A stretch of DNA of 64,000 bases from Streptomyces sp. 1222.5 (GTDB lineage Bacteria > Actinomycetota > Actinomycetes > Streptomycetales > Streptomycetaceae), in NCBI RefSeq assembly GCF_900105245.1, contig NZ_FNSZ01000001.1, positions 1,736,001 to 1,800,000 of the forward strand, in the 5' to 3' direction. Positions within the stretch are counted from its first letter, which is position 1. Each line of letters opens with the position of its first letter. Shown here one piece after another: positions 27,766 to 58,149 of the stretch. The position numbers and the translations under genes are program-made. The notes below the pieces were generated by a model. It did not search any database, was not told the DNA's origin, and was given only the letters and a program-made list of their open reading frames with translations.

Positions 27766-28851
27766 TCAGCCACGCAGCAATTCCCCTGGACCGATCTGCG
27801 TCAGCAGCGGCGGCTCGCTATCGCCTTCATACGCGAGGTGGAGTTCCTTGCGCGCCCGCGTGGCCATCACGTAATAGGTCATCCGCAGAGCCGCCGAGGT
27901 GGGATCGGCAGCCGCGTCTGTGTGCGTGTCGGGGACGACGACCGTGTCGAAGCCCAGGCCCTTTGCGCTGGCTCGATGGACCAGGACGACCCCGGGGCGA
28001 GCGAGGTCCAGAGTCCGGTAGCGGCCCCCGGTCGCCTGGGATGTGTACAGCTGCGGCTTGAGCCGCGGCGCTCTCCGCTCCAGACTGCCGAGGATCGAGA
28101 ACTGGGTGTGCTTGGAGTTCACGATCACACCGATGGTGTGATCGGGGTGCCGCTGGGTCAGCGTGACCAGGAGGTCGGCTGCGCCCCGCTCGGGCAGGCG
28201 GTGCACGCGCGGCGGCGGGCCTTCGCGTTCGGGTAGCACGGGCAGGCCGGCCCCTGTGTGGAAGCGGGCGGCGAGGGCGGCGATCTGTCGAGTGTTGCGA
28301 TGGTTGCCGTCGAGTTCCAGGAGTGTGCAGTTGCCGAGCCGCTGGGCGATCTCCGCCAGGGTGGAGTTCGTGTCGGTCAGGCGCTGGCACTCATCGGCGA
28401 ACACCGTGATCCGGGCCCCGAGGAGCCTGCACAGTCGGTAGAACTCCGGGGGGAGGTCCTGTCCCTCGTCGATGACCAGGGTCAGACCGGGGTCGGGTTC
28501 GGTTTCGGCGGCCCGATCGTAGAAGGCAGACCAGTCGTACCAGCCGTCCTCGGCGCGTGGAGCCTTCGGGCCGTACCAGTCGGCGAGCCATGCGTGCGCC
28601 GTGGCGACACGAACTCCGCGGTCCCTCGGCCCCAGAGCGTGGACGGTGGAGGCCAAGGACTGGTGGAGCAGATGGGACCGTGTGAGCAGGACAGCCGGGG
28701 TGCCGGTGAGTGCGAGCATGACGGCGCGCTGGGCTGCCAGCAGGCTCTTGCCGCTGCCGGGCGGCCCGCTGATCAGGTGGTTGCCGTCGAACGGCAGGCT
28801 GTCGAGCGCGTCCCGCTGGTCAGAACTGAGGTCGAGGTAGGTGAGCGTCAT
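27766..28851 (-). CDS. Small SF1 (UvrD/DUF2075-like) helicase, third gene of DrmAB-like operon
   Basis: 361 residues. Walker A is ISGPPGSGKSLL near residue 27, Walker B is LVIDEGQDLP near residue 125, and the UvrD-type C-terminal motifs are VVLVHRASAKGLGFDTVVV and MTYYVMATRARKEL near the end. It is much shorter than UvrD and lacks the accessory 1B/2B insertions, so it is probably an ATPase or short-range translocase. It overlaps the DrmB-like gene by four bases (ATGA), so the two are translated together. This partner is not part of standard DISARM. Confidence 0.85.
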   Translation of the reverse strand: MTLTYLDLSSDQRDALDSLPFDGNHLISGPPGSGKSLLAAQRAVMLALTGTPAVLLTRSHLLHQSLASTVHALGPRDRGVRVATAHAWLADWYGPKAPRAEDGWYDWSAFYDRAAETEPDPGLTLVIDEGQDLPPEFYRLCRLLGARITVFADECQRLTDTNSTLAEIAQRLGNCTLLELDGNHRNTRQIAALAARFHTGAGLPVLPEREGPPPRVHRLPERGAADLLVTLTQRHPDHTIGVIVNSKHTQFSILGSLERRAPRLKPQLYTSQATGGRYRTLDLARPGVVLVHRASAKGLGFDTVVVPDTHTDAAADPTSAALRMTYYVMATRARKELHLAYEGDSEPPLLTQIGPGELLRG

Positions 28852-30701
28852 GGGGCGGCCTGCTCCAGGGTTGCGGCCGCCGCTGCCCGGGCGGCGGTGA
28901 CGATGGGCTCGAAGTAGCCGGGCACCTGCTCCCCGCCGACGACGAGGGCACGGTCGAGCAGTGTGTTGCCTGACTCGCAACTCGTCTCCGGCAGCAGAGC
29001 GCAGGCGTGGCAGGCGGCCCGGTTGAGGTTGCCGAAGCCCTGCCCGGCATGCTCGGCACACAGGGGGTCGGCGGAACACCATGCGGCTGCTTCGGTCATG
29101 CGCAGCAGCGTCTCCGCCAGATGCGCCGGTTCTCCCTGGCGCACGAGTCCGCCGAGCGTGCCTTCGGCGTCGCCGGCAGCGGTGTAGACGAGGATGCCGT
29201 ACTGGTCCTGTTCGGGGCGGGCGTAGATCCGTTCACGCAGACTCGCCGTCGTGTAGCCCGACTCGAAGGAGAGCTGGCGGATGAGGAGATGCGCGAGGGT
29301 GTGCAGCAGGACGAACCTCGGGGCGAGCTCTGCTCCGGTGAGGGCTTGGAGCCGGTCCTTCTGAAAGGCGCGGTCGAGGTCGGCACGCATTCCGGCGACG
29401 CGCCGAATCACCCGGTCGTCGGCTTCCCAGTTCCTCAGTGTGTCCCTGTCGAGGGTGAGGAAGATGCCTTCACCGAAGACCTCCACGGCAGGGAGCCACT
29501 TCAGGCGCCTTGCGGTGTCGGCGGGTACGACAGTGGCGTCCGGTGACACGCGAGTGAAGCCGGACAGGGCACGCACCTCGCGCAGCCGGTCGACGAGCAG
29601 GATCCGTCCGATGCCGCGCCGCAGCCCCACCCAGGGCTCCTCGGTCTCCTGGGCCAGGCCCAGTGTGGTCTCGCGCAGTGCGAAGTCCCGCGTGGCGGGC
29701 GGGACGGGCGCCATGAAGGCCGCCCACTCCTCGCGGCTGAGGTCGGGGCGCGCAGGTGCGACCGCCGCTTCGGGAGCCTGCGTCGCAGGCTCTCCGGTCT
29801 CCTCGGCCAGGAGCAGATCCAACAGGACGTCGTCCGCCCCGGTATCATCCTTGATCATTTCGCGGAAGACCTCGGCGCGTGGGGTGGCGGCGACCTTGCA
29901 CAGGGAGACCCACAGGTCGTGCTCGCGCACCCGGCTCGCGGTCCTCTCGTCGTGGTGCGCCGGGGTTTCCGTCTCAGGTATGTCGAGGGCGGAGTGCACG
30001 ACGGGGTAGTACAGATTGCCTGCGGTGCGCTGCACGATCTGCACGGGCTTCACGCACTCCACGGTTTCGTTCGCCCGCTGCCACGGGTTGCGTCCGGAGC
30101 AGCGCATGCCGTGCGTGCCGAGGATGTCGAGCAGGTCGCGGGAGGCTCCGCAGCCCTTCGCCGCACATGCGACGGAGAGGGCTTCGAGGCCGGAGGCCCG
30201 CTCGGAGACCAGGAACCGCAGCTTTTCGCGTTCTCCGCACTCCCTGCGCTCAGTGGTGTCACGTCGTGAGTGGGCCCAGAACCACCAGTCGATGTCTCCG
30301 AGGTGGCCGGCGGAGCAGATCTGCACGAACCTCATCGGCGCGAGGGTGGGGCCGGTCGAGCAGGACGGGCAGCGCGGCGGCTGTCCCGGCTTCTCGTCCG
30401 CTATGCGCCAGCGCTTCATCCGTCGGCATGCTCCGCAGAACAGCCAGGCGGGGAAACGGATGTAGGGAGCACCGGGGGTGTCCGGGACGTCGTAGCGGTC
30501 ATTGGCGGTGGGCGGGGCGGCGTAGAAGCCGGTGACCCCGAGACGAGTGGCGAGGCGAGGCGACTCCACCCGCTGCTTGGCCCGCTGCGGCCAGTCACCG
30601 ATGCCGGTGGCCACGAACGACTCGCCCTGGATGTCGAAGACGGCTCCGACCCCGAACGGCAGGACGGTCTGTGACTGACGTACCCGTAGTGTGCGGCTCA
30701 C
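28848..30701 (-). CDS. drmB: DrmB-like DUF1998 protein
   Basis: 617 residues. It has the DrmB opening VLPFGVGAVFDIQGESF, the zinc-type FCGACRRM and CPSC cysteines, and in the C-terminal third the DUF1998 core LLHTLAHLLIRQL near residue 467 followed by CHACALLPETSCE. In DISARM, DrmB binds the DrmA helicase to form a DNA-engaging complex. The GTG start is chosen because it overlaps the DrmA-like stop (GTGA); a longer frame runs into that gene. No catalytic residues of a nuclease are evident. Confidence 0.9.
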   Translation of the reverse strand: MSRTLRVRQSQTVLPFGVGAVFDIQGESFVATGIGDWPQRAKQRVESPRLATRLGVTGFYAAPPTANDRYDVPDTPGAPYIRFPAWLFCGACRRMKRWRIADEKPGQPPRCPSCSTGPTLAPMRFVQICSAGHLGDIDWWFWAHSRRDTTERRECGEREKLRFLVSERASGLEALSVACAAKGCGASRDLLDILGTHGMRCSGRNPWQRANETVECVKPVQIVQRTAGNLYYPVVHSALDIPETETPAHHDERTASRVREHDLWVSLCKVAATPRAEVFREMIKDDTGADDVLLDLLLAEETGEPATQAPEAAVAPARPDLSREEWAAFMAPVPPATRDFALRETTLGLAQETEEPWVGLRRGIGRILLVDRLREVRALSGFTRVSPDATVVPADTARRLKWLPAVEVFGEGIFLTLDRDTLRNWEADDRVIRRVAGMRADLDRAFQKDRLQALTGAELAPRFVLLHTLAHLLIRQLSFESGYTTASLRERIYARPEQDQYGILVYTAAGDAEGTLGGLVRQGEPAHLAETLLRMTEAAAWCSADPLCAEHAGQGFGNLNRAACHACALLPETSCESGNTLLDRALVVGGEQVPGYFEPIVTAARAAAAATLEQAAP

Positions 30702-33700
30702 AGGTCCGCTCCCTTCACCATGACCTGGCATTCGCGGTCGACATTGCGCATGGAGTTGGGCGTCTCCCACAGGCCGTAGCGCTGCTCGAAGCTCTTGATG
30801 AGGTTGGACTGGCCCTTGCCCTGGTTGCGGTAGTACAACGCCCGGCCGTCCTTACGCGCCTCACGGGCGGCTTCCTCCCAGTCGGCGAGGAGTTCGCCGA
30901 GTTCCTTGCGCACGGCGTCGGCCGAGACGGACTCTCCGGCGGTCACCACCCGTGCCGACAACTCGTCCGCGAGTGCCTCCGCTTCGGTCATCCGGTCGAG
31001 GATGCGGCCTGCCTGGTTCTCCGCGGCCAGGCCGAGGCGATGGCGTACGAGGATGACGAGCGCGGCGTGCAGTGCGCGGCGGCGCGAGGGTACGGACCAC
31101 GGTGTGACGCTCGTCGGCTCGACATGCCGGTACAACGACCGGTGATACACGTCGAACGTCTCGTAGTGCGAACGGTCGCGGGGACGCGTGGCGTTGAAGA
31201 ACGTGACGACGAGGCCGGGCACGGTGTGCCGGCCCACCCGGCTGGTGGCCTGGATGTACTCGGCCGTCGTCTTGGGCTGGCCCTGCATGAGCATGAGCGC
31301 AAGCCGCTTGACGTCCACACCCACGGACAGCATGTTCGTGCAGGGCAGGAAGGACACCGACTCCTCGTCCTTCCAGCCCTTCTCGAGCCGGTCGAGCAGG
31401 ACGGGTTGCTCCGCTCGGGGCAGGTTGCTGGTCAGCTCCTGGACCTGCAGATCGCCCAACTCACGTATGCCACAGCCGGAGCCTGCATCCAGGCCCTTGA
31501 GCTGGGCCGGGATGTCGTCGGCCGCGGCTGTGACCGTACGTCCGAGTTCGCGCAGGCTGTGGTGGTAGGCGACCAGGGTCCAGTAGTCGTCGCGGTGTTC
31601 CAGGGGCAGTTCCCAGGCACCCTGCAACATGGCCGCCGCGGTGGCCACCGAGGCGCGGCCCGCGGTGTGCCCCTGGGCCATGACGCCGAGGTAGAGCCGG
31701 CCGGGCCGCGACCTGTCGGGTTCGGCGAAGTACGAGTGCCGGGCGTCGAGTCCGGCCGGCGGGAAGAGCTGAACTTCGCTGCCGTACAGCGCACGGATCT
31801 GTTCACCGGAGCGGCGGATGGTCGCCGTGGAGGCCACCACCTTCGGTCCGACGCCCTCGGGCGTCGTGCACAGACCGAGCACGGCCGACTCGTACAGGCC
31901 GACGGTGGTGCCGAGGGGGCCGGTGAGCAGGTGCAGCTCGTCCTGGATGACGAGCGACGGCGGCAGGTTCCCGGTCTCGGCGCCGAAGAGCCGCCCGGCC
32001 CGCGGCTCCCAGGCCAGCCGGGCGAACTTGTCCACGGTGCCGAGCACGAACGTGGGCGGCCGGTCGTAGAGCTGCTCGTCCACGACGCTGACGGGGAGCT
32101 CGTCGTGGAAGGCGCAGTCGTCGCGCGGGCAGTGGAAGGCGAAGGAGTCGGCGGTCGCACGCACGCCGTAGTCGCCGATGTCCGGCGACTTGTGGGAGGG
32201 AACTATCCGTGTGCCGCACCAGGGGCACCGGTCCAGGATGAACACGTCGTCCGGCTTGGCGGCCCCGCGTACCTCCTCGAACTTGGTGCGGGCCGTGTCA
32301 TAGGAGTTCGGGGACGTGGCCTCGCCCACCCAGAGGCCGATGGAGAACGGCTCCTCTCCGTACGTCTCCGGGTCGGCGCGGCGCAGGGTCTCCAGAGCAC
32401 AGACAGTGGTGGCCGCCCGTTGGAACTGCTGTGTCGTCAGCAGACTGAGGGTGTAGCGGCTGAGGACGGCGGTCCCGCCTCCGTCGGGTGCGGCACGGCG
32501 CAGGACCATGACGAAGGCGGCCAGCAGCAGGTAGGCCTCGGTCTTTCCACCGCCGGTGGGGAACCAGATGAGGTCGGTGACGTCTCGGTCCGGGTGTCCC
32601 GGGTCGGCGACCCCGTCCACGGCGAGCAGGAAGAACGCCAGCTGGAACGGCCGCCACGTCGCGTCCGGTTTCGGCGTCGGGTCGAGCAGCACGGGGTCAC
32701 GGCGTGCGCGCCGCTCGCCGGCCTGGTCGCGAGCGGAGTGCCGCATCTGCAATGCCATGGCACGGTTCGCGGCCCGGAAGGCGTGCAGGAGTTCGGGGCG
32801 GCGTGGGTCGCAGAGCGAGCGCACACCGGACTCGATGCGGATGACCGCCGCGTCGATGCGGTCGAGAATGCGATCGGCGGCGTCGCGGCCCCACTCGGGG
32901 ATCTCGGTGTTGAGCTGTCCCACGTACCAGGCCCGGTAGTGGGCCGCGAACTCGTGCAGCTCCTCGCGGAGTTGCTCCACCGAGACGGTGTCGTCGGCGA
33001 GGTGCAGGACGTTGAGTACGGGCGAGTCGGTGAGTCCGGCAGCCCGGGTGCCGCTGACCTCGGCCTGCGGCATGACGGCGGCCTTCACCGCGGTCACCCG
33101 TCCCGAGTCCTCGTCGCGCTGCTCCTCGACGGCGCACCCGTGCCCCACGGCGTGTGTCTGGACGTGCCGGTACTGCAGTCGCAGTTCCTGTTCCTCGGGG
33201 TCGCGGCTGGCCAGGCGCACGCTCGGGTACGGCAGGACGGTACCGTCCATGGGCCGCGCTTCCAGGCCCACCTGGAACAGCATGCGGTCCCACTGTGCCA
33301 CCTTGCCGAGCGCCTGCTCGTGGTGCGCGGCGTTGACCAGGGCCACGGTGACCAGATGCCCACTCCCGAACATGCGCCGGCGCACCCGGATCTCAGCCCT
33401 GCCGTCGAGCACGGGCACGCGGTCACGGTCGGGGCCGAGCGTGTGCATTTCGGGGGTGAGCGGAACTCGCAGCCAGCGCCGGCCCCCTTCGCCGGTTGCG
33501 GCCTTGGTCTCGTAGCGGGCACCGGAGCAGCTGACAGTGACTGTGGTCGTGTCGGTGTAGAAGCTCAGGCCGAGGGAGGACGGCAACCAGGAGTTCGCCT
33601 CGGGAACGGGATCCGTGGACGGAGAGGTGTCGTCGGCCCGCGCTTCCGTGCCCGGACCGTCCGGCTCCTCCGCCGCCAGGTACAGCTGCCTCTGCAGATC

Positions 33701-33832
33701 GGCTTCCTGCGGATAGAGGGTGCCCATGAGGTACTGCCGGTCGGGCGGGGCGTCGAGAATCTCCTGCTCGCCGCCTACAGGACCGACGAGTTGGCGGTGC
33801 AGGTAGTCGACGAGCTCTTGCCGGGCGTCCAT
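30698..33832 (-). CDS. drmA: DrmA-like SF2 helicase
   Basis: 1044 residues. Unrecognised ~400-residue N-terminal region, then the helicase core: Walker A IWFPTGGGKTEAYL near residue 427, a CPWCG/CPRDDC zinc element near 540-575, Walker B variant VIQDELHLLTGPLG near 629, and motifs V-VI NMLSVGVDVKRL and QATSRVGRH near 840-870. The DELH box and spacing match DISARM DrmA. AGGAG lies four bases before the ATG. It heads a tightly overlapping operon with DrmB-like and SF1 helicase genes and follows the sigma-like gene by 54 bp, so all four may be co-transcribed. Confidence 0.9.
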   Translation of the reverse strand: MDARQELVDYLHRQLVGPVGGEQEILDAPPDRQYLMGTLYPQEADLQRQLYLAAEEPDGPGTEARADDTSPSTDPVPEANSWLPSSLGLSFYTDTTTVTVSCSGARYETKAATGEGGRRWLRVPLTPEMHTLGPDRDRVPVLDGRAEIRVRRRMFGSGHLVTVALVNAAHHEQALGKVAQWDRMLFQVGLEARPMDGTVLPYPSVRLASRDPEEQELRLQYRHVQTHAVGHGCAVEEQRDEDSGRVTAVKAAVMPQAEVSGTRAAGLTDSPVLNVLHLADDTVSVEQLREELHEFAAHYRAWYVGQLNTEIPEWGRDAADRILDRIDAAVIRIESGVRSLCDPRRPELLHAFRAANRAMALQMRHSARDQAGERRARRDPVLLDPTPKPDATWRPFQLAFFLLAVDGVADPGHPDRDVTDLIWFPTGGGKTEAYLLLAAFVMVLRRAAPDGGGTAVLSRYTLSLLTTQQFQRAATTVCALETLRRADPETYGEEPFSIGLWVGEATSPNSYDTARTKFEEVRGAAKPDDVFILDRCPWCGTRIVPSHKSPDIGDYGVRATADSFAFHCPRDDCAFHDELPVSVVDEQLYDRPPTFVLGTVDKFARLAWEPRAGRLFGAETGNLPPSLVIQDELHLLTGPLGTTVGLYESAVLGLCTTPEGVGPKVVASTATIRRSGEQIRALYGSEVQLFPPAGLDARHSYFAEPDRSRPGRLYLGVMAQGHTAGRASVATAAAMLQGAWELPLEHRDDYWTLVAYHHSLRELGRTVTAAADDIPAQLKGLDAGSGCGIRELGDLQVQELTSNLPRAEQPVLLDRLEKGWKDEESVSFLPCTNMLSVGVDVKRLALMLMQGQPKTTAEYIQATSRVGRHTVPGLVVTFFNATRPRDRSHYETFDVYHRSLYRHVEPTSVTPWSVPSRRRALHAALVILVRHRLGLAAENQAGRILDRMTEAEALADELSARVVTAGESVSADAVRKELGELLADWEEAAREARKDGRALYYRNQGKGQSNLIKSFEQRYGLWETPNSMRNVDRECQVMVKGADL

Positions 33833-33886: not shown

Positions 33887-36800
33887 TCAGGACCGGCGCC
33901 AGCGGTCCCGCAGGGATGCCCGGCCCTCTGCCGGTGCCTGGAGGGCGGCCAGTTGCGCCTGCAACTCGGAGATGCGGGCCCAGGCGTCGTGTTCGGCCTG
34001 AGCGAGGCGTGCGGCGGCAAGCTGCTGCTCCTGCACAGCCCGTGCTTCCCGCTGGTTGGCGGCCGTCACCAGCGCTTCGGCCCGCTGCTCCGCCGCCTCG
34101 GCCCGTTGCTGGGCCTGCTCCACGTCGGCGGCGGCACGGAGCCCGGCTTCGTACATGGCCCGGTCCCGGGCGATGAGCCGGGTCTCGCTCTGCCTCAGCC
34201 GCGCCTCGAGCTGTGCGATGCGCGCTTCGGTGTCGTCGTGGTAAGCACGCAGCCGCTGCTCGGCCTCCTCAGCCCGGGCCTGGGCCCGGGACGATTGCTC
34301 GGCCGAGACGGTGGAGGCCGCCGTTTCCGCGTGTCGCAACCGGATCTCGAGGTCCACGATGCGTTCCTGTGCACGGCGCGTGGCAGCGAGGTTCGCTTCG
34401 CGTTGCTCCTCCTTGAGCCGCGCGACGCGCTCGTCGGCCTGGCGTCGCAGGTGCTGCGCCTGCCGGGCCAGCGCCTTGTCCGCACGCTTCAGCAGAATCT
34501 CTTCCCACCTGTCGAGCTGCTGTTCCGTCTGTGCCAAGGCGGCCCCGACCCGCGCGTCGGCCGCCTGCTGCACCTCGGCCATGCGACGTTCGTGGTGCTC
34601 GGCCAGGCTCGCGATCACCGCATCGTGCAGGGCCCGGGCCTCGGCGAGCAGTCGCTCGACGTCTACAGGGGATTCAACGGGGAGTGCCTGATCAGGCTGA
34701 GCGGCGGCAGCGTGCACGGGTTGCGGGGTGGTCTCCGGCGCGGGTGCCATCGCCCCCTCCACGGATGCAGCCCGAGCATCCTCCGAAGTACCCACATTCC
34801 CTGTATCCGCATCGGCGTCACCTCGTGCCGTCTGCGTCACCGCGAACTCGTCCAGTGCGTGACGGATGGCCACACGCGACTCGTTCTCCACCAGGGGCTT
34901 GGCCGCCAGGTACGCGCGGGGCGTCGTCCGGCCCAGTGCCTCGGACGTCCACTCGAAGAAGTGCTCAGGCCGCAGCCCGAGCTCTTTGAGCGCATCCAAC
35001 ACGCTCTTCAGTACTTCCAGGGCCTTGACCACGCGACGGTCGAGCGTGCCCCGCTCCCGCCCGGCCCTGACCACCGCATCCGCGGCGGGCGAGCCGAGCA
35101 GCACGGCCAGTTGTAGATGCCCGACGGCGAGCGACGCGTACTCGGCGAGCCAGGCCACGCCGCCGCCGAAGGGCGGCGGTGCCAGCTCCCGTGCCTTGTC
35201 CCAGTCGGCGGTGTACTGCGGTCGTGTCGGCATGTCGTCGTCTTCCAGGGCACTTGCCGTTGTACGGCTCCGCTCCGATTCGGTCACATCCGTGACGGGC
35301 TCGTCGGCAGCCGTCGCCGACCCATCGCCCGGCTGCGGGGCAGATGCATGGTCCTTCGCGGCTGACTCCTCCTCGGCCGGCTCCGGCTCGACCAGCACCT
35401 CTTCGACCGAGCCCGACTCGACACACGTTTCTTCGGCCGGTTCTGGCTGGACCGGTGCCTCCTCCTCGCTTGCCACCGGCGCCGCCTCCGGGAGCGCCTG
35501 CGGTGCGGCCAGGAACTCCTTGAGGGCGTCACGCATCGCCAGCCGGGGCTCGCCGTGCACCAACTGCTTGCGGGCCAGGTAGGCTCGCGGCGTCACGCCG
35601 CACAGCGCGTCGGAAGCACGGTCGAGGAAGTCCTCGGGTCGCAAGCCGAACTTCGCGGCGCCGTCGCAGACACGGCGCAACACCTCGAGCGCCGCCAGCA
35701 CGTTGTGGTCGGCCGGCTCGCCCTCGCGCGCGATTCTGAGCACCGCGTCGGCTGCCGATTGCCCAAGGATTTCGGCGAGCCCCGGGCCTCCAACGGCGGC
35801 GAGGGCGTAGTTCGCGAGCCACGCTTGTCCGGACGGCTCCTCGGCCAACCGGCGGGCCCTGTCCCAGTCCGGCGCGTCCACGGATGCCGCCACGTCCGCC
35901 GTCATCCCGTTCTCCCGATTCACCGGGGCCTCCGTTGGGGCTCGACCGCTGGGCTGTGTGGCCACATCCAGATCTGGTGCGATATCGGCACGGACATGAC
36001 GGGCCGGACGGACAGTGCGGGAGACTCGCTTGGCGGAACTGACCTTCTCCTTGGCGGAGTTCTCGTGTGCAGATGAGGCACTGGTCCCGAGGAGGCGAGC
36101 GCTCCGCAGCCGCGCCCGCAGCGCAGGCAGCAGCTTGACCTCCAGCTGCCTGATGCGCTCCCTCGTCACACCGAACTCGCTTCCCAGTTGATCCAGCGTC
36201 GACGGCGCCTCGTCGTCGAGTCCCAGGCGCCGTACGAGAATCCGGTGGTCGCGGCCGGAGAAGGTGTCCACCACGGCCATGGCATCCGCCAGGAGCAACG
36301 CGTCGTGCACCCGCGCCTCGAAGGACGGCACGGCCCGGGTACGCGCCACGAAGTCCCCCAGGGTCGCTCCATCCCCGATCACCCGGTCCAGCGAGTCGGT
36401 ACGCATGCTCAGCCGTCGAGCCTCTTCGACCTTGCTCAGACTCACGTCGCACAGGACGGCGACCTCGGCAGCTGTTGCCGGTCGCCCTTGCGCTGCAAGG
36501 GACCGCTCGGCGTTGGCCACCTTGCGGATCTGCTCGTGCATGTGGACGGGGATACGGATGACGGCCCCTTCGTCCGCGATGCCCCGGGTGATCGATTGGC
36601 GCACCCACCAGGTCGCGTACGTCGAGAACTTGAACCCCTTGGCCGGATCGAACTTGCGCGCCGCCCGCATCAGCCCCAGCACTCCGTGCTGGAACAGGTC
36701 GTCGTAGTCCAGCCCCTGCTCCAGATAGCGGGGAACCATGCTGTGTACGAGTCTCTGGTTGTGCACGACCAGGCAGTCCCGCGCGCGAATCCTGATGTCG

Positions 36801-37630
36801 TCCGACGGCAGCGCGCTGAGCGTCTCCTGTTCAGGTTCCTCGTCCGCACCTCCCCACACGAGCACGGCGAGCCCTATCTCTTCCTGCGCGGTGAGCAGGC
36901 GGTTCTCCGGCCGACGACGGATGCGGTCCTCGCGCATGACGGTCCGGGCCGCGTCCACTGCGGCGGCCCGGTCCGCGTCCGTCCGCACGACCGCTTCGGA
37001 CGGTTCGGGCAGGAAGTCCTCCGCCGGTTCGCCGACCTCCTCCTGTGAGGCTCCCTCCCCTGCGGACGAAGGCTCGCCGGGTGACTTCTCTGCAACGCCC
37101 CGAGCGTCAGTGGCCGGCCCCGGCTCCCCACCCACCTCTTCGAGCGTGACTCCAGCCGTCGTCTCCAGCGACGGCCTGTCGGGCCGCACCCGAGCAGCCT
37201 CTCTCAGGGCCGCCGCCTCACGAGAGTTCAGCCCCGCGAGGCGTACGACTCCTTCCAGGGCCCGTGGCGTCACGTAGCCCTCGGCATCGACGTACCGCTC
37301 GAGCAGGCGCATCACTCGATCCAGCCGAGGGAACACAATTTCTACACGCTTCCGTGCAACCTTTTCCACATCTGGAATGTCGACGCCTGTATGCACCACG
37401 TTCCTCTGGACAGGCACCTTCAACCTGAGCAGTTCGCCCCGCAGGCGCTCGCGCTCCACCTCGCCGAGCCCCAGCCTGCGCGCCTGCGCGAGGAATACCG
37501 CCTCCGGCACGACTCCGCCGACAGCGGCCCGGCGCAGATGAACCATCAGCTCCGCCAGGGCGGCTCGGGTGACGGAAACCTCCGGCTCTCCGACGTCCTG
37601 ATGCCCCGCCAAACCATCCACCCCCAACAC
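33887..37630 (-). CDS. Giant sigma-70-like protein with duplicated domain and C-terminal coiled coil
   Basis: 1247 residues, about three times a normal sigma factor. Residues 20-145 hold two helical units like sigma region 1.1. Residues ~245-515 are a complete sigma core: region 1.2 [11 protein letters not shown], region 2 [17 protein letters not shown] and [13 protein letters not shown], region 3, and region 4.2 [10 protein letters not shown]. Two copies of an unrecognised ~120-residue helical domain follow (587-707 and 807-930, both starting DW-D-x-A-R and containing TPRAYLA), then a ~240-residue coiled coil. A GTG start with a near-leaderless promoter is used; the ATG at 37544-37546 is an alternative. 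It is divergent from the kinase-helicase gene and upstream of drmA on the same strand. Confidence 0.88.
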
Positions 37631-37643
37631 GGTTACATGCCGG

Positions 37644-37673
37644 ACAGTAAAGGCATTGCGTTAACACTGTCAA
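37644..37673 (-). promoter_or_regulatory. Promoter for the sigma-like gene
   Basis: On the minus strand a consensus -35 TTGACA (37668-37673) is followed after 18 bp by TACTGT (37644-37649). The expected start point is about seven bases before the GTG at 37630, so the mRNA would be leaderless or nearly so. The hexamers are the best match to a housekeeping promoter seen in the island. Confidence 0.65.
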
Positions 37674-37674
37674 C
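37660..37674. promoter_or_regulatory. Near-perfect palindrome over the sigma-gene -35
   Basis: GTTAACA-C-TGTCAAC, one mismatch between arms, covers the -35 hexamer of the leftward promoter in the 185-bp region between the sigma-like and kinase-helicase genes. It is a candidate operator that would let a dimeric regulator switch the leftward operon. Confidence 0.5.
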
Positions 37675-37774
37675 ACATCTTCCCTCTAGGAAAGTTAATA
37701 CCTCTCGTGTACGGTGACCGCGTCCGCACTCTCCGCTTCGGAACCAGGCGGCAGGACAGCGGTCACAGGGGCAA

Positions 37775-37815: not shown

Positions 37816-40800
37816 GTGGGCCACGAGCTGATCGATGGCAGGTTCCGCGTCGGGCAGGTCATCGGCAAGGGCAACATGGGGGAGGTTCACCGGGGCGAGG
37901 ATCTCCAAGCCCCGGCGGGCAGCGCCGAGCGCCCGGTCGCTGTGAAGACGATCCTCCGCCGCCGTACGGGTGGCCTGATCGACACCGGCGCGGACAACAA
38001 GGCCGTGGAGCGCTTCGCACGCGAGGTGCGCATCATGCGCCGCCTCGAGCACCCGAACCTGACCCGTCTCATCGCCGGCGGAATAAGTGCGGATGGCGGA
38101 CTGCCCTACCTGGCCATGGAGTTTCTGGACGGCGAGACACTGCGCGACCTCATCGAGGAGGAACGCCAACTGCCCGTCTCCTGGGTGGCAGCCATCGGCG
38201 CCCAGATAGCCGAGGGCCTGAGCGCGGCCCACGCGGCCGACGTGGTGCACCGCGACCTGAAACCGGCGAACGTCATGCTGACGCGGGGCGGCACCGTCAA
38301 GGTCCTCGACTTCGGCATGGGCCGCATCGTCGACGACCCGGACGAGGCACGGCTCACCAGCACCGGCGTCAGCGTCGGCACCGCCCGGTACATGGCACCC
38401 GAGCAGTTCGAGGCCCGCCAGGTTTCCCAGGCCGCCGACCTGTACGCCCTCGGCTGTGTGCTGTACGAAATGCTGCTCGGTGTACCACCGTTCGTCAGCG
38501 AGTCGCCGTTCGAACTCGCCCGCAAGCACCTCGAGACCGAGCCGACGCCGCTAGGCGTCATCCGCGGAGGGATACCCTCCGAACTGGTCCGTCTCGTCGG
38601 TCGGCTGCTCGCCAAGGACCCTGCCGATCGCCCTGCGAGTGCGGCCGACGTCCACGACTCCCTGTATCCGCTGGCCGTGGGCGACGACGACACGCCGCCG
38701 CGACTCCCCCACTGGAGCGCTCTCGACCCGACACGGCCCCTGGCCGCCATGGCCGCCCGAGCCCTCGCCGCCCCGGCGGCGCCGGCGCCGCGACCGGCGC
38801 CCGTCACCGCCTCCGGCATGGCGATGGACGTGTTCGGAGTGCACCGCGCCCTGATCAAGGACTACCGCGACTTCACCGAGGGCGGCACGGTCATCCGCGA
38901 TGACCGTGTCGCGACCTTCGTGGAAAAGGACCTTGACGGCAAGTCGCAGTGGCCTGATCCGTGGCTGTCGCTCAACCCTTTCTTCCAGAGTGGTGGCACG
39001 GTCGCGGAACTCGTCGGGGAGAAGGTCCTCCACCCGGAGTGCGCCCGCATCTTCCAGGCGGGCAAGACGGAGGGTGGCACCGTCCCGGACGGGCGGCCGC
39101 TCACCCTCCACCGCCACCAGCGCGAGGCCATCGACGCTGCGGCGCGCAGCGCCTCGTACGTCCTGACGACAGGCACCGGCTCCGGCAAGTCGCTGTCGTA
39201 CATCGTTCCGATCGTGAACCGCGTCCTTCATGAGCGGGACTCCGAGGGGCCGAATTCAGTCAAGCGAGTGCGCGCCGTCATCGTGTACCCGATGAACGCG
39301 CTGGCGAACAGTCAGCTGAAGGAACTCGAAAAGTACCTGCGCGACGGGTACGGCGAGGGCCACGAGCCGGTCACCTTCGCCCGATACACGGGGCAGGAGG
39401 ACGACGCCAAGCGGAAAGAGATCCGCGACAACCCCCCGGACATCCTGCTCACCAACTACGTGATGCTGGAGCTGATGCTGACCCGGCCCGCCGACCGGGC
39501 CAGTCTCATCAAGATGGCCAAGGGCCTGGAGTTCCTCGTCTTCGACGAACTCCACACCTACCGCGGCCGGCAGGGCGCCGACGTCGCCCTACTCATACGC
39601 CGGGTCCGCGAGGCCTGCCAGGCACCCGACGTACAGTGCATCGGCACCTCGGCCACCATGTCGACCGAGGGCACCGTCGAGGACCAGAAGAAGGTGGTCG
39701 CCGACGTGGCGAGCCGGCTGTTCGGCACGACGGTCAGCCCGCGGCACGTGATCGGCGAGACACTCGTACGTGCCACCGACGAGGCTCCTAACATCGTCCC
39801 CGCCGAGCGTCTGACGTCGCCCGCTGCGCCGCGCGCGTACGACGATCTGGTGCGCGACCCGTTGGCCCGCTGGATCGAGACGCGGTTCGGCCTCGCAACC
39901 GACGAGGCGACGGGCAGGCTGGTGCGCCGCCGCCCCACGAAGATCGAGGTCGCGGCAGGGGAACTGGCAGAGCAGTCGGGAGTCCCCAAGGACGACTGCG
40001 CGAAGGCCATCGAGGCGACGCTGGACGCCGGCTCACAGGCCCGGCACCCGGTCACCGACCGCCCGCTGTTCGCGTTCCGTCTGCACCAGTTCCTCTCCAA
40101 GGGCGACACCGTGTACGTCACCCTGGAGGACAAGCTCTCCCGCCACCTGACCCGCTCCTACCAGCTGGAACAGCCGGGCAGCGGCGGCAAGCTGCTGATG
40201 CCGCTAGCGTTCTGCCGCGAGTGCGGCCAGGAGTACCTGACCGTCTGGCGCACCGAGAAGGACGGCGAGGTTCGTTACGAGGCACGCCGGGACACCTCCG
40301 CCACGGGCGGGCGGCAGGGCGACGGCTACCTCTTCATCGACCAGGAGCGGCCCTGGCCGACCAGCGTCCAGTACGCCGTCGACGACCGCCGGCTGCCCGA
40401 GTCCTGGCTGGAGCTGGACGACAGGGACCAGGAGGTGGTCAAGAAGACGTACCGCGACCGGGTGCCGCGCGCGATCACCGTGGACCCGCTCGGCTACGAG
40501 GGCCGCGGCGAGCTGCAGGCCGCGTTCATCCCGTCGCCGTTCCTGTTCTGCCTGCACTGCGGTGTGGCCTACGAGCAGACGCGCGGCCGGGACTTCGCCA
40601 AGCTGGCGACGCTGGACCAGGAAGGCCGTTCCTCGGCGACCTCCCTCATCTCGGCCTCGGTGGTGCGGTCCCTGAAGTCGGTGCCGGAGGAAGCCCTGGA
40701 CAAGGAGGCCCGCAAGCTCCTGACCTTCGTCGACAACCGCCAGGACGCCTCGCTCCAGGCCGGCCACTTCAACGACTTCGTGCAGATCACCCAGTTGCGC

Positions 40801-43800
40801 GGGGCGCTGTACCGGGCCGCCCTGGAAGCCAGCGAGGACGGGCTCACCCATGAGGAGCTGGCGTCGGCGGTGACGAACGCGCTCGGCATCGCTCCCGTCG
40901 ACTACACGGGCGAGCGGGAACTGCCCCCGACCCTGGCCAAGGCGGCGGCCAAGACCCTGCGCGACGTGGTCGCCTTCCGGCTCTACCTCGACCTGGAGCG
41001 CGGTTGGCGCATCACCATGCCCAACCTCGAACAGACCGGTCTGCTGGAGATCGACTACGCGGACCTGCGCTGGGTCGCGGACAAGCAGGACCGCTGGGCG
41101 CACACCCATGCGGCGCTGCGGGACGCCGATCCGGCGCTGCGGGCCGAGATCATGAAGGTCCTGCTCAACGAGATGCGCCGTTCGCTCGCCATCGACGTGT
41201 CGTACTTCCGTGACGACTTCGACGCGTTGCAGCGGGCGAGCGAGGAGCGGCTGGTGGACCCGTGGGTGCTGTCGGCCTCCGACCGGCCCGGCGTGGGCAT
41301 CGCCTACCCGAGTCCTTCGGGCCGGGGACTGGACCGCTCGGGCCTGTTCGTCTCGGCGCGCGGCAAGTTCGGCAAGTACCTCAAGCGCGCCGACGCCTCG
41401 TTCAAGAAGCTCTCCCCCGACGATCTGCAGCTCGTCATCGCGGAACTGCTGAAGGTGCTGGCCGCCAACGGCCTGGTGAAGGAGGTGACGGAGGCGCCGC
41501 AGCGCGCCGGCCGCTACCGCAGGCCGACGACGCCGGCCACGACCGGCTACCGGGTGGCGGCCCAGTCGCTGATCTGGCGTGCCGGCAAGGGCGAGACGGG
41601 CACGCACGACCCGCTGACCCGCACCTACCCCAGTGGCGACGGCCCGCGCGTGAACACCTTCTTCCGGGACCTGTACCAGGAGGCGGCGAGCGCGCTGTCC
41701 GGGCTGTTCGCCCGCGAGCACACCGCCCAGGTCGCCCCGGAGGAACGGGAGCGGCGCGAGGAGGCGTTCCGCAAAGCGGAGCTGAAGCTGCTCTACTGCT
41801 CCCCCACGATGGAGCTGGGCGTCGACATCTCCTCCCTCAACGCGGTGATGATGCGCAACGTGCCGCCCACGCCCGCCAACTACGCCCAGCGTTCGGGACG
41901 CGCGGGCCGCAGCGGCCAGCCCGCGCTGGTGACGACGTACTGCGCGACGGGCAACAGCCACGACCAGTACTACTTCCGCCGCTCGGAGCGGATGGTGGCG
42001 GGGGCGGTGGCCCCGCCGCGCCTGGACCTCGCCAACGAGGACCTGGTCCTCTCCCACCTGCAGGGCATATGGATCGCCGAGGCCAGCCTGAAGCTGGGCC
42101 GCGCGATACCCGAGGTCCTCGACGTGTCGCACCCCGACACGGGCGACCGCCCGAACCCGGCTCTGGAGCTGCTCCCCGACATCCTCGCCGCCTCCCTGGA
42201 CGAGACCGCGCAACACCGCACGGTGGACGCGGCGCTGCGAGTGCTCGGCCCGCTTCTGCCAGACTTCGCGGACACCACCTGGTGGCACGACGACTGGATC
42301 CAGGACCGGGTCCGCACGGTGCCGGAGCGCTTCGACCGGGCCTTTGACCGGTGGCGTCAGCTGTTCCGCGCGGCACTCGACGACCAGTACATCCAAAACA
42401 AGCGGCGCCTGGACTACAGCCTGACCGAGAGCGACCGCAACCGGGCCAACGCCCGCCGCCGCGAGGCGGAGACGCAGCTCAACCTGCTGATGAACGAGAG
42501 CGTGGACAGCAAGTCGGTGCTCTCCGACTTCAACCCCTACCGCTACCTCGCCTCTGAGGGCTTCCTGCCCGGGTACAGTTTCCCGCGTCTGCCGCTGGCC
42601 GCCTACATCCCGACGATCGGCCGGCGCCGGGGCGACGGCGACTACCTCCAGCGTCCCCGCTTCCTCGCTATCCGCGAGTTCGGCCCCGGCTCGCTCATCT
42701 ACCACGAGGGCGCCCGCTACCAGGTGACCCGCATCCAGCTGCCGCCGGACGCCTCCGGCGACCTGGCGACCAGCGAGGCCCGCCGCTGCGCGCACTGCGG
42801 CTACCACCACGACCCGGCCGAGCGCCAGGACCGTTGCCACATGTGCGACGAACCGCTGGGCGCGGCCACCCACGGACTGCTCCAGCTGCACACCGTGTAC
42901 ACCACGCGCCGGGAGCGGATCTCCTCCGACGAGGAGGAGCGCCGCCGTGCCGGCTTTCGGCTGGAGATGTCGTACCGGTTCCAGGACCACGGCGCCCGCA
43001 AGGGCCGCCTCAACGCGTCCGTCGCGGACACCTCGGGCGCGCCGCTGGCCGACCTGGCGTACGGCGACTCGGCAACCGTCCGCATCACCAACCTGGGCCG
43101 GGTGCGGGCCAAGAAGGACGAGCCGGCGGGCTACTGGCTCGACCTCGCCGACGGCCGCTGGATGAACGACAAGGACGCCGCGGAGGCCTCCGGCGACTCC
43201 AGCGAGCTGCCCGTGGTCGACGAGGACGGCAAGGAGCGGCGCCGCAAGAAGCGGGTCATCCCGTACGTCGAGGACCGCCGCAACATCCTCGTCGTCACCC
43301 TCGACGAGGCCCTGCCCGAGCCCGAGGCGCTGTCCCTGATGTACGCGCTGGAGCGTGGCATCGAGGCCGCGTTCGAGCTGGAGGACGCCGAGCTGTCCAG
43401 CGAGCTGCTGCCACCGGACGGCGGACCGCGTAACCGGTTCCTGTTCATGGAGGCCGCCGAAGGCGGCGCGGGCGTGCTGCGCCGCCTCCAGGCCGAGCCG
43501 GATGCCCTGGCGAAGGCGGCCCGGTACGCCCTGTCGATCTGCCACTTCGAGGAGGACGGCACCGACCTGGGCGGCCCGCACCCGGACCGCCCCTGCGCCC
43601 TGGGCTGCTACGAGTGCCTGTTGACGTACGGCAACCAGCTCGACCACGCGCTGATCAACCGCCACGCGGCCCGGCACCTGCTGGTGCGGTTCGCCTCGGC
43701 GACGGCGGAGCGCGAGTCGCGCGGCGAGTCGCGGTCGGAGCAGTACCGGCGACTGCTCGACCAGACCCCGGCGGCACCGACGGCGGTCGAGGCCTCGGCC

Positions 43801-44112
43801 GCCGCCGAACTGGCCGCGCGCGGTGACTTCCTGGGCTGGGCGAAGGCGCGGGGACTGCACCTGCCGGACGAGGCGGCCCCGTTCCTCACCGAGGCGAACG
43901 CGATGCCCGACTTCGTGTACCGGCTCCCCGGCGGAAACGTGGCCGTCTTCGTCGACACGCCTGAAAAGGAGCAGGACACCTTCCGGGACGAGGACGCCGA
44001 GGACCGCCTCTTCAACGCCAGTTGGGACGTCATCCGATTCCCCCACGGCGACGACTGGGACGCCATCGCCGCCGCCAACGCCCGCTACTTCGGCACGCCG
44101 ACCGCCAACTGA
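37816..44112 (+). CDS. Ser/Thr protein kinase fused to DUF1998-type SF2 helicase
   Basis: 2098 residues from a GTG with AGGGGAG five bases upstream; the open frame extends 34 codons further but has no ribosome site. Residues 1-285 are a complete Hanks kinase: IGKGNMGEV glycine loop, VAVK lysine (44), HRDLKPAN (145-152), DFG (165-167), APE. A ~100-residue linker leads to a helicase of the MrfA/YprA type: GTGSGKS near 453, DELHTYRGRQG near 577, ATMS, motif VI RSGRAGR, and the C-terminal zinc/DUF1998 box ALGCYECLLTYGN. The last ~60 residues (PDFVYRLPGG, VFVDTP, DVIRFPHGD) resemble a Vsr/PD-(D/E)xK fold, but the canonical Lys is not evident. It is the first gene of the rightward operon. Confidence 0.9.
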   Translation: MGHELIDGRFRVGQVIGKGNMGEVHRGEDLQAPAGSAERPVAVKTILRRRTGGLIDTGADNKAVERFAREVRIMRRLEHPNLTRLIAGGISADGGLPYLAMEFLDGETLRDLIEEERQLPVSWVAAIGAQIAEGLSAAHAADVVHRDLKPANVMLTRGGTVKVLDFGMGRIVDDPDEARLTSTGVSVGTARYMAPEQFEARQVSQAADLYALGCVLYEMLLGVPPFVSESPFELARKHLETEPTPLGVIRGGIPSELVRLVGRLLAKDPADRPASAADVHDSLYPLAVGDDDTPPRLPHWSALDPTRPLAAMAARALAAPAAPAPRPAPVTASGMAMDVFGVHRALIKDYRDFTEGGTVIRDDRVATFVEKDLDGKSQWPDPWLSLNPFFQSGGTVAELVGEKVLHPECARIFQAGKTEGGTVPDGRPLTLHRHQREAIDAAARSASYVLTTGTGSGKSLSYIVPIVNRVLHERDSEGPNSVKRVRAVIVYPMNALANSQLKELEKYLRDGYGEGHEPVTFARYTGQEDDAKRKEIRDNPPDILLTNYVMLELMLTRPADRASLIKMAKGLEFLVFDELHTYRGRQGADVALLIRRVREACQAPDVQCIGTSATMSTEGTVEDQKKVVADVASRLFGTTVSPRHVIGETLVRATDEAPNIVPAERLTSPAAPRAYDDLVRDPLARWIETRFGLATDEATGRLVRRRPTKIEVAAGELAEQSGVPKDDCAKAIEATLDAGSQARHPVTDRPLFAFRLHQFLSKGDTVYVTLEDKLSRHLTRSYQLEQPGSGGKLLMPLAFCRECGQEYLTVWRTEKDGEVRYEARRDTSATGGRQGDGYLFIDQERPWPTSVQYAVDDRRLPESWLELDDRDQEVVKKTYRDRVPRAITVDPLGYEGRGELQAAFIPSPFLFCLHCGVAYEQTRGRDFAKLATLDQEGRSSATSLISASVVRSLKSVPEEALDKEARKLLTFVDNRQDASLQAGHFNDFVQITQLRGALYRAALEASEDGLTHEELASAVTNALGIAPVDYTGERELPPTLAKAAAKTLRDVVAFRLYLDLERGWRITMPNLEQTGLLEIDYADLRWVADKQDRWAHTHAALRDADPALRAEIMKVLLNEMRRSLAIDVSYFRDDFDALQRASEERLVDPWVLSASDRPGVGIAYPSPSGRGLDRSGLFVSARGKFGKYLKRADASFKKLSPDDLQLVIAELLKVLAANGLVKEVTEAPQRAGRYRRPTTPATTGYRVAAQSLIWRAGKGETGTHDPLTRTYPSGDGPRVNTFFRDLYQEAASALSGLFAREHTAQVAPEERERREEAFRKAELKLLYCSPTMELGVDISSLNAVMMRNVPPTPANYAQRSGRAGRSGQPALVTTYCATGNSHDQYYFRRSERMVAGAVAPPRLDLANEDLVLSHLQGIWIAEASLKLGRAIPEVLDVSHPDTGDRPNPALELLPDILAASLDETAQHRTVDAALRVLGPLLPDFADTTWWHDDWIQDRVRTVPERFDRAFDRWRQLFRAALDDQYIQNKRRLDYSLTESDRNRANARRREAETQLNLLMNESVDSKSVLSDFNPYRYLASEGFLPGYSFPRLPLAAYIPTIGRRRGDGDYLQRPRFLAIREFGPGSLIYHEGARYQVTRIQLPPDASGDLATSEARRCAHCGYHHDPAERQDRCHMCDEPLGAATHGLLQLHTVYTTRRERISSDEEERRRAGFRLEMSYRFQDHGARKGRLNASVADTSGAPLADLAYGDSATVRITNLGRVRAKKDEPAGYWLDLADGRWMNDKDAAEASGDSSELPVVDEDGKERRRKKRVIPYVEDRRNILVVTLDEALPEPEALSLMYALERGIEAAFELEDAELSSELLPPDGGPRNRFLFMEAAEGGAGVLRRLQAEPDALAKAARYALSICHFEEDGTDLGGPHPDRPCALGCYECLLTYGNQLDHALINRHAARHLLVRFASATAERESRGESRSEQYRRLLDQTPAAPTAVEASAAAELAARGDFLGWAKARGLHLPDEAAPFLTEANAMPDFVYRLPGGNVAVFVDTPEKEQDTFRDEDAEDRLFNASWDVIRFPHGDDWDAIAAANARYFGTPTAN

Positions 44113-54640: not shown

Positions 54641-54826
54641 TCAGGAGCCCGCGGCGAACCCCACGAACCGCGACCACTCCTCATGCCCGACGGAGAAATG
54701 AGGAAGCGTCACGTCCTTGGAGTCGCGCAGGTGCACGGCCTGCTCAGTGACGGCGACCTCGATGCAGTTGTCGCCCTGGGTGCCGCTGTAACTGGACTTG
54801 AACCAAACCAGTTCCGTCGTGCTCAT
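54641..54826 (-). CDS. DUF397 domain protein
   Basis: 61 residues with the family core WFKSSYSGTQGDNCIEVAV and HLRDSKD. DUF397 proteins accompany Scr1/BldB-associated helix-turn-helix regulators throughout Streptomyces and are thought to act with them. AGGAG lies five bases before the ATG, which overlaps the regulator stop (ATGA), so the pair is one transcription unit. Confidence 0.92.
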   Translation of the reverse strand: MSTTELVWFKSSYSGTQGDNCIEVAVTEQAVHLRDSKDVTLPHFSVGHEEWSRFVGFAAGS

Positions 54827-55686
54827 AGCTCTCCTCGCAGTCGCTCCAGCAGGCCTCGTGAGTCTTGGGGGTTCAGGGCCTGCGAGCGCAGTGTGTCATA
54901 GCGTTGACAGAGGAGGCTCACCTCTTTCACGTCGGAGATCAGGCGGCCGTTCTGCTGGCCCTCGGAGTAAGCGAACCTCTGCCCCTTCGGCGTTTCCAGA
55001 AGCCATACCGGCCCATCCAGGCAACCGTGAAACTCGGTGTCCATCGGCATGATTTGAAGTGTCACGTTCCGCAGGGTGCCAAGCTTTAGAACGTGGTCGA
55101 GCACGCCCCGCAGCACCTCGGAACCCCCGAGCCGACGCCGGAACACATGCTCCTCCACGATGAAGCTGAACGGAACGTGAGTCCGCTCGTACAGCACCCT
55201 CTGACGCTCCAGCCGGGCAGCCACCTGCGCTTCCAGCTGGTCGTCAGACAGCAAGGGGATGCCGTTGTCGAACACCGCCCGCGCATACCCTTCCGACTGC
55301 AACATGCCCGGCACCAACCGGCACTCATACGAAGCGAGACTCACCGCCACCCGCTCCAGCCGAGCCCACTGCCGAAACCAAGCCGCCAGCCCAGCCTCCC
55401 CCCGAGTCAGAAACCGCGCCGACCTCCGCAACGCCCCCGTGTTCCCCAACACCTCCTCCGCCCGCTCCACGAACGACTCGTCCGGCATCCGCCGCCCCAG
55501 CTCGACCGACTCAACCGTGTGCTTGGAGAAGCGCACCAACTCCGCGAACTCCACCCGGCTCAGCCCCGCATGCTCACGCAGCGCCTGTACGACCGCCCCG
55601 AAGGTCCGCAGGCTGTCCGACGGGTCCGGCTCCCGCTCGTACTCGGCACCGGCGACCACCAGGTCGACGTTGTCGGTCGTCGTCAT
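54823..55686 (-). CDS. Scr1-family XRE regulator (HTH plus DUF5753)
   Basis: 287 residues. The HTH is at residues ~30-80 (FGAVVQALREHAGLSRVEF, FSKHTVESVELGRRMP) and the DUF5753 domain follows (ARLERVAVSLASYE, ECRLVPGMLQSEGYAR). The ATG is preceded by GGAGGTG. These proteins act with DUF397 partners; some are called antitoxin-like. The genes bound are unknown. Confidence 0.92.
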   Translation of the reverse strand: MTTTDNVDLVVAGAEYEREPDPSDSLRTFGAVVQALREHAGLSRVEFAELVRFSKHTVESVELGRRMPDESFVERAEEVLGNTGALRRSARFLTRGEAGLAAWFRQWARLERVAVSLASYECRLVPGMLQSEGYARAVFDNGIPLLSDDQLEAQVAARLERQRVLYERTHVPFSFIVEEHVFRRRLGGSEVLRGVLDHVLKLGTLRNVTLQIMPMDTEFHGCLDGPVWLLETPKGQRFAYSEGQQNGRLISDVKEVSLLCQRYDTLRSQALNPQDSRGLLERLRGEL

Positions 55687-55777
55687 TCGAGGCCCACCTC
55701 CAGGTGCACGCAAGCCAGTCAGCCCTGACCTGCAACCCAGCCTGGCCGCCTCGAATTCGTACTGTCCACCGAACGTG

Positions 55778-55802
55778 TCCGTACGCTGACTCACCGTACG
55801 GA
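55778..55802. terminator. Inverted repeat between small zinc protein and Scr1 gene
   Basis: A perfect 8-bp stem (TCCGTACG / CGTACGGA) with a 9-nt loop lies just after the stop of the leftward 69-residue gene and upstream of the Scr1 gene. It could terminate that gene or be an operator of the Scr1 regulator. Confidence 0.45.
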
Positions 55803-58047: not shown

Positions 58048-58103
58048 CATCCCTTGGCGTTTCCGCACCGGGCTCAGTGAAGGCTGACCGTCGTACTGTC
58101 CAG

Positions 58104-58143: not shown

Positions 58144-58149
58144 TCTGGT

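Follow-up and report, generated by a model that had tools for sequence, protein, structure and literature searches.

We found that a predicted sigma-70 protein of 1247 residues (hereafter SIG), encoded on the minus strand at 33887..37630 of a 64,000-nucleotide stretch of the Streptomyces sp. 1222.5 genome (contig NZ_FNSZ01000001.1, positions 1,736,001 to 1,800,000; this whole stretch is called the window), is closely associated with the genes of a DISARM-type defence island. The initial annotation of this DNA, whose description of the protein was confirmed and whose interpretation was partly supported by our analysis, had placed the protein in a defence island upstream of drmA and divergent from a kinase gene. 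This placement was confirmed, because the gene for a DrmA-type helicase (30698..33832, minus strand; identified with PADLOC and NCBIfam) is the first gene downstream on the same strand, and a gene that joins a Ser/Thr kinase to a DruE-like, MZB-containing helicase (37816..44112, plus strand) is divergent from it. We give about an even chance to the reading that SIG is a working sigma factor dedicated to this island, the first gene of an operon SIG-drmA-drmB-helicase, and co-controlled with the kinase operon via a shared palindrome. If this is true, a sigma factor is a fixed part of a DISARM-type system.

Gene order across genomes and the sigma core

The position of SIG relative to drmA was investigated in the loci collected. 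In each of the 30 distinct loci of subfamily 1, to which the window belongs, SIG and drmA share a strand and SIG lies directly 5' of drmA. These were the window, 24 distinct loci out of 25 (L036 and L051 being one place) and 5 new loci out of 7 (L129 and L130 repeated L041 and L033 and were excluded); the contig ends within SIG in L038 and L042, and the gene is interrupted in L037. A second subfamily, found via the promoter-pattern search described below, had SIG directly 5' of drmA-drmB-helicase in 10 of 10 loci (L166-L171, L174, L175, L177, and L099); its SIG proteins were without the C-terminal parts and, apart from the truncated copy of L099, measured 510-590 residues from stop to stop. 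A divergent kinase start was present in 25 of 28 loci, with a fragment in L045 and none in L046, L054, and L134, while the kinase of L131 was not detected by a whole-gene search. In the wider phylum, DrmA matches were obtained from 63 of 396 genomes, many of them being weak helicase matches. Among the 29 DrmA neighbourhoods of this survey (L099-L127), a sigma gene was near DrmA in 4 (L099, L100, L101, and L123) and in none of the other 25. Thus, sigma factors occur at certain DISARM-type loci but not at every one.

Two of these neighbourhoods contained sigma proteins with additional parts. The locus L101:4034-7648 (minus strand), adjoining a DrmA locus, encodes 1205 residues in which an XRE-like segment and a GHKL-ATPase-like region come after a sigma core (assigned by eye), and this protein takes a place next to the SIG clade in the tree as drawn. 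The locus L123:6555-8435 (plus strand) encodes a 627-residue sigma with a long N-terminal extension and precedes a very different DrmA relative (29% identity).

The open reading frame of SIG is complete, running from a GTG at 37630 to a stop at 33887 (the exact start is unproven), and its identification as a 1247-residue sigma-70 protein was upheld by Pfam matches above cut-off to Sigma70_r2 (residues 287-354; 68.6 bits, cut-off 24), Sigma70_r3 (residues 366-434; 38.1 bits, cut-off 25.3), and Sigma70_r4 (residues 458-505; 30.8 bits, cut-off 24.1). The core, comprising a partial region 1.2 to region 4.2, occupies residues 235-513 (36092..36928, minus strand). Regions 1.2 to 4.2 had all been described as intact; this applied to regions 2 to 4, but region 1.2 had no Pfam r1_2 match at E<=1 and could be aligned in its second half with LLNAEQEVELAKRIEAG of a principal sigma encoded in this genome. 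When SIG was aligned with three such principal-type sigmas, the region 2.4 block and the region 4.2 block (TRERIRQ) proved to be retained, as had been claimed for the helices reading the -10 and -35 elements; in sigma-70 proteins, these blocks contain residues that read DNA. Loss of core-binding residues in region 2.2 had been named as a point on which this assignment could fail, and no such loss was found: the motif was Q-H-G in 21 of 22 SIG proteins (the window and 20 of 21 relatives) and Q-N-G in L041, versus Q-E-G in the three principal-type sigmas. Other sigma families vary at this position, and therefore Q-H-G does not exclude core binding.

Moreover, a phmmer search against PDB sequences gave 84 distinct matches at E<=0.001, of which the best 60 were all named sigma factors, nearly all being SigA, RpoD, HrdB, SigB, or RpoS. 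The model of SIG region 4 resembled the sigma of initiation complexes (Z 10.3 over 82 residues at 2.2 A). With its three nearest sigmas in this genome SIG shared 38-40% identity, and in a tree of 40 cores the 24 SIG rows were split from 14 principal-type rows with support of 100/98. Judged from its sequence, SIG possesses an intact group-1/2-like sigma core over regions 2-4. A core so similar to housekeeping sigmas would also suit a back-up sigma that reads HrdB promoters and sustains host or defence transcription in the face of a phage that disables or takes over the housekeeping sigma, and fixed core differences such as Q-H-G could aid escape from phage anti-sigma proteins. However, nothing in our results ties SIG to phage anti-sigma proteins, and the coupling to DrmA/DrmB is left unexplained; we consider this explanation rather unlikely.

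The shared palindrome and its candidate regulators

Upstream of SIG, a 15-bp palindrome, GTTGACAGTGTTAAC as read on the minus strand (37660..37674), includes the -35 TTGACA of the putative SIG promoter, whose -10 TACTGT (37644..37649, minus strand) follows after an 18-bp spacer. On the other side, a -10-like element of the kinase promoter, TACGGT (37710..37715, plus strand), lies 35 bp after the palindrome. Both features were conserved. The SIG promoter, TTGA(C/T)-N17/18-TANNNT, and a palindrome near GTTGAC-n3-GTCAAC (10-13 of 13 letters) were present upstream of SIG in 28 of 28 loci, the starting GTTGA and the terminal AAC of the palindrome being invariant. In 27 of 28 loci, a GTACACG-like element on the kinase side, with its TAC on the kinase strand, begins at a distance of 36-38 positions from the start of the palindrome (18 in L045), the gap between palindrome and TAC in these 27 being 33-35 bp.

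The kinase operon of subfamily 2 is located 23-39 kb from SIG. We examined 12 further kinase upstream regions, of which 10 came from genomes with SIG at this distance and 2 from G029, a genome without SIG (L208 was dropped because it had no kinase start), and all 12 carried the palindrome with 10-13 of 13 letters. Its score was above all 200 shuffles in 10 of the 12, the exceptions being L203 (1 of 200) and L205 (10 of 200). A TACnnT element followed the palindrome by 33-35 bp in 11 of the 12; in L173 there were two such elements, at distances of 28 and 35. Based on the palindrome and TAC element at these distant kinase operons, a common regulator of the SIG operon and the kinase operon is very probable.

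The promoter pattern was matched in 42 of 295 genomes, against 2 of 295 for the reversed control. Of 43 pattern sites, 30 were read: 14 led into SIG relatives and 16 elsewhere, namely to MaoC-like genes (4), HpcH-like aldolase genes (2), lipoprotein genes (2), an XRE-GHKL gene (1), a gene in the island of G111 (1), and six single or unclear genes. These labels were assigned by eye; in addition, the XRE-GHKL gene and the G111 gene were scanned against PADLOC, and the latter against Pfam as well. Thus, the pattern is not exclusive to the island. The XRE-GHKL-like gene (L155 / L178:9739-11958, plus strand) lies about 7.6 kb from a DrmA match and is preceded by GTTGACAGTGTTAAC..TAGCCT. The MaoC-like genes of four Streptomyces genomes (L144, L147, L157, and L161) have a promoter GTTGACAAAATAAACG..TAnnTT that resembles the island palindrome yet is distinct from it.

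Considering that the SIG -35 lies inside the palindrome and that the own genome holds a single copy of the strict pattern GTTRACANYGTYAAC, SIG itself was at first an attractive candidate for the palindrome binder. It was demoted on two grounds: palindromes occur in G029 and G111 without SIG, and subfamily 2 has the palindrome without the C-terminal domain. In G029 and G111, the best matches to SIG were principal-type sigmas only, and the loci read there yielded neither drmA nor drmB nor helicase; G029 keeps the palindrome before the kinase, and both genomes have it before a gene starting MIDYRKA. Because the palindrome persists in these genomes, SIG is not a likely binder, and the binder is probably another protein.

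A WhiJ-like XRE-DUF5753 regulator (54823..55794, minus strand) is a better candidate than SIG. It is accompanied by a BldB-like DUF397 partner (54641..54895, minus strand) and an AbaA-like HATPase_c_2 protein with an anti-sigma-type domain (58081..58635, plus strand). The WhiJ-like gene was near the island on the same contig in 24 of 26 island genomes, with G136 (a fragment) and G306 as exceptions. Among 14 control genomes without the island, which had neither the domain match nor the promoter pattern, 5 gave WhiJ-like matches at threshold (78, 60, 59, 53, and 52% identity), and 1 of the 14 had a gene of identity similar to that in island genomes. In 17 of 17 regions selected by the XRE match, the DUF397 and HATPase genes were within 4 kb of the WhiJ-like gene (<=4 kb; the HATPase match was partial in L267). 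As far as gene neighbourhoods tell, the WhiJ/BldB/AbaA-like trio is linked to the island. The AbaA-like protein may pair with SIG. The palindrome pattern GTTGACnnnRTnAAC was not present before the WhiJ-like gene itself in the regions fetched around that gene. According to PMC10294661, WhiJ9 of S. venezuelae binds direct repeats.

Extensions of SIG and the weighing of its possible roles

Outside the sigma core, SIG carries extensions at both ends. N-terminal segment 1 (residues 20-78; 37397..37573, minus strand) was modelled as helix-strand-helix-helix and is retained in subfamily 2; segment 2 (residues 98-150; 37181..37339, minus strand) has a similar layout. The two segments can be aligned over 29 residues, which suggests a repeat, but a comparison of their profiles was not significant (P 0.064). 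The idea that these segments represent sigma region 1.1 was rejected: the layout matches in the model, but profiles against the N-termini of principal-type sigmas gave no significant match (P 0.076-0.99). The model of residues 1-520 was poor (mean predicted local distance difference test, pLDDT, 52.7; predicted template modelling score, pTM, 0.25), and its layout alone was used. The C-terminal part contains two domain copies, at residues 586-708 (35507..35875, minus strand) and 807-930 (34841..35212, minus strand), followed by a coiled coil of 241 residues (991-1231; 33938..34660, minus strand), in good agreement with the 240 residues first described, with a short break at 1105-1111 where confidence dips. 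The duplication of the domain, described for the window, was real there but not general: two copies were found in only 6 of 25 proteins and one in 19 of 25, including three incomplete or broken proteins (L037, L038, and L042). Thus, the duplication is lineage-specific.

The segments of SIG have been conserved to different degrees. In 21 relatives, the median identity to the window SIG was 83% for regions 2.1-2.4, 72% for the core, 58-60% for the N-terminal segments, 63% for the second domain copy, 50% for the coil, and 17-20% for the linkers. The first domain copy had only 29% in the raw alignment (11 rows), because single copies align with the second copy. The ratio of nonsynonymous to synonymous substitution rates (dN/dS) was calculated for one gene pair, SIG and L043, a relative of the same genus (genome G240). 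The sigma core had a value of 0.13; the two domain copies had 0.20 and 0.29, the coil 0.28, and the N-terminus 0.29, and the linkers ranged over 0.67-0.86. These values mean that SIG is not a chance frame and that its folded parts are maintained by selection. Judged by this pair, every folded part of SIG is under purifying selection and the linkers much less so.

The duplicated domain had first been called unknown; structure prediction narrowed it to an antitoxin-like fold, as a lead. It is a helical domain of 124 residues, found in 18 of 392 genomes of the genus, in 8 of 297 of the family, and in 1 of 396 of the phylum (the own genome). The model of residues 803-1247 had a mean pLDDT of 80.6, reaching about 90 in domain copy 2; the fold of copy 1 was assigned via homology to copy 2. 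In a Foldseek search against PDB, the antitoxin chains 8qnq_A, 8gug_C, and 9r35_C ranked 1, 4, and 7 with weak E values of 0.22-1.3. A VIA-align comparison with 539 chains placed antitoxins at ranks 1, 2, 3, 5, and 7, with 106-113 residues aligned for NatR, VPA0769, MbcA, and Xre. The Z scores were 7.6 for NatR (106 residues, 3.6 A), 7.4 for VPA0769, 7.0 for Mycobacterium tuberculosis MbcA, and 5.1 and 4.8 for Pseudomonas putida Xre, the best non-antitoxin row having 5.2; since Z values below 8 may reflect a common arrangement, the match serves as a lead only. The corresponding family PF09722 was not among the Pfam matches at E<=10 for the domain (13 members). When the domain profile was compared with six PF09722 proteins, both halves aligned at P 0.0054, although the probability was just 2.8%, versus P 0.07-0.47 for four controls; a single PF09722 protein, L221, gave no match (P 0.93). 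PF09722 itself was found in 26 of 118 phylum genomes and was not found in the 41 relatives searched. No RES-type toxin was matched in the subset of open reading frames scanned by Pfam, a PDB sequence search with the domain returned designed proteins and chance-like matches only, and a viral structure library gave nothing below E 0.7. The repeated domain is therefore put forward as having an Xre/MbcA/ParS-antitoxin-like fold, as a lead from the predicted model.

If SIG is a working sigma factor of the island, it would bind core RNA polymerase and, once released, direct transcription at housekeeping-like TTGACA/TANNNT promoters, its own operon included, which would form a positive loop upon island induction. 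The release could be set by the WhiJ-like DNA binder, the BldB-like partner, and the AbaA-like anti-sigma-type HATPase, and perhaps also by the divergent kinase. The antitoxin-like domain and the coiled coil, which occur in one subfamily only, may serve in docking or oligomerisation and thereby link the sigma to further proteins of the island.

Several points weigh against a dedicated, working sigma factor, in addition to the probable binding of the palindrome by another protein. The change from Q-E-G to Q-H-G in region 2.2 affects what we take to be a core-binding position. SIG may, as proposed earlier, activate the island, but no promoter recognised by SIG and not by a principal sigma was identified. 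A clear -35 is missing from the kinase promoter, as no conserved hexamer was seen by eye 17-18 bp before the TAC element. Since the subfamily-2 proteins do without the C-terminal parts, the basic role does not require them. Finally, L099 (G013) keeps DrmA next to a truncated SIG of 444 residues that has lost region 4 and the tryptophan pair (residues 341-342 of the window SIG), and L180 (G144) has the kinase operon and an N-terminal SIG fragment, with no sigma core or drmA within the 19.9 kb read; these cases mean that SIG can be lost.

Such losses, the variable domain copy number, the conserved promoter, and the first place in the operon would all suit a plain autoregulator, in which SIG does no more than set how strongly its operon is expressed and the extensions merely decorate a lineage. 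However, dN/dS values of 0.20-0.29 in the extensions are low for decoration, and we regard this as quite unlikely. We also think it unlikely that SIG is not mainly a transcription factor, its sigma2 and sigma4, alone or on RNA polymerase, recognising housekeeping-like promoters on incoming DNA while the C-terminal parts bring DrmA/DrmB and other helicases. In every counted locus of subfamilies 1 and 2, SIG stands directly 5' of the DrmA/DrmB genes and shares their strand; its promoter-reading blocks are housekeeping-like rather than island-specific, no SIG-specific promoter was found, and subfamily 1 has long docking-type extensions under selection. Nevertheless, subfamily 2 has the same gene order without the extension, the 587-residue sigma of the more distant relative L100 is divergent from drmA, and region 4 matches transcription sigmas in initiation complexes. 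A more elaborate idea, which we rate as distinctly improbable, is that SIG, by itself or bound to host RNA polymerase, acts as a sensor or guide that reads promoters on incoming phage DNA, and that the antitoxin-like domain and coil pass this DNA to DrmAB and the kinase-helicase, the AbaA-type protein holding SIG inactive in uninfected cells. If SIG acts in targeting and not in transcription, this would be a new way of finding phage DNA.

Returning to SIG as a dedicated sigma factor, it would be a concrete candidate for the sigma that an anti-sigma-like protein of the AbaA type may control in Streptomyces. As a handle for finding the regulator that coordinates both halves of a large defence island, there is the palindrome they share. 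In some Streptomyces, then, the island begins with its own giant sigma, fused to an antitoxin-like domain and a long coiled coil, and this suggests that the defence itself includes promoter reading.

The island and known systems

The remaining genes of the island were compared with known defence families. Downstream of drmA on the minus strand are a DrmB-type protein with an MZB domain (28848..30770) and a superfamily 1 (SF1)/UvrD-like helicase (frame 27766..29232, with an ATG at 29082). The kinase-helicase gene is followed on the plus strand by a DpdE/DrmD-like SNF2 helicase (44146..47118) and a DrmMI-like methyltransferase (47115..51257; DrmMI 234.9 bits). In PADLOC, which gives no cut-off for these models, DrmA scored 687.1 bits and DrmB 258.6 bits. 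DrmA was below the curated NCBIfam cut-offs (DrmAS, 901.2 of 950 bits; DrmAL, 600.5 of 999 bits); as the former falls just short, the island is called DISARM-type and not a DISARM member. The SNF2 helicase scored 280.3 bits with DrmD but 1958.8 bits with one PADLOC DpdE model, which may have been built from this helicase's own family. The kinase gave 70.5 bits with PglW of BREX/Pgl, below its cut-off of 990. DrmC belongs to the DISARM class gene list, and none was among the matches listed for the proteins scanned.

Other features of the window were recorded as well. A WXG100-like protein with a Tox-REase-2 domain of the polymorphic toxin type is encoded inside the island (58733-60379, plus strand) and followed by a small gene (60395-60850), and an McrB-like AAA protein (61603-63708, plus strand) is near the island in many relatives, with 37-84% identity. 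At 14693-14731, two near-identical palindromes, GTAGACACTGTCTAC and GTAGACAGTGTCTAT, have starts 24 bp apart.

Sigma factors in defence are already known, since MzaA is a named anti-phage sigma. The literature searched, which did not extend to most subscription papers, described no sigma factor in DISARM and none with an antitoxin-like domain. MzaA (NF041931, PDLC02203) was the sole PADLOC match of SIG and its best NCBIfam match, and it was within the top three for the relatives L100, L101, L123, and L166. Its model scored 231.7 bits on SIG, below the cut-off of 800, with SIG residues 217-516 corresponding to positions 409-713 of 726. Neither MzaB, MzaC, MzaD, nor MzaE was among the matches listed for the island proteins, of which a subset of open reading frames was scanned. 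Thus, both proteins have a sigma-70 core inside a defence system, MZA in the case of MzaA, whereas SIG matches MzaA over the sigma core only.

SIG has regions 2 to 4 in common with principal and group-2 sigmas such as HrdB, SigA, and SigB. In contrast to them, it forms a separate clade with altered regions 1.2 and 2.2, and it adds the N-terminal segments, the C-terminal antitoxin-like domain, and the coiled coil. The repeated domain resembles in fold the Xre/MbcA/ParS antitoxins (NatR, VPA0769, MbcA, and the Xre of Xre-RES) but has no PF09722 match and is embedded in a sigma factor. The island shares DrmA- and DrmB-type genes with DISARM class 1 (DrmA, DrmB, DrmD, and DrmMI), has DrmD-like and DrmMI-like genes as candidates for the other two, and differs in adding SIG, the fusion of kinase and DruE-like helicase, the SF1 helicase, and the regulator trio. 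Like the Streptomyces WhiJ/BldB/AbaA trios of PMC10294661, the trio clusters XRE-DUF5753, DUF397, and HATPase genes; this set, however, is an island-linked group, and WhiJ9 of that paper binds direct repeats.

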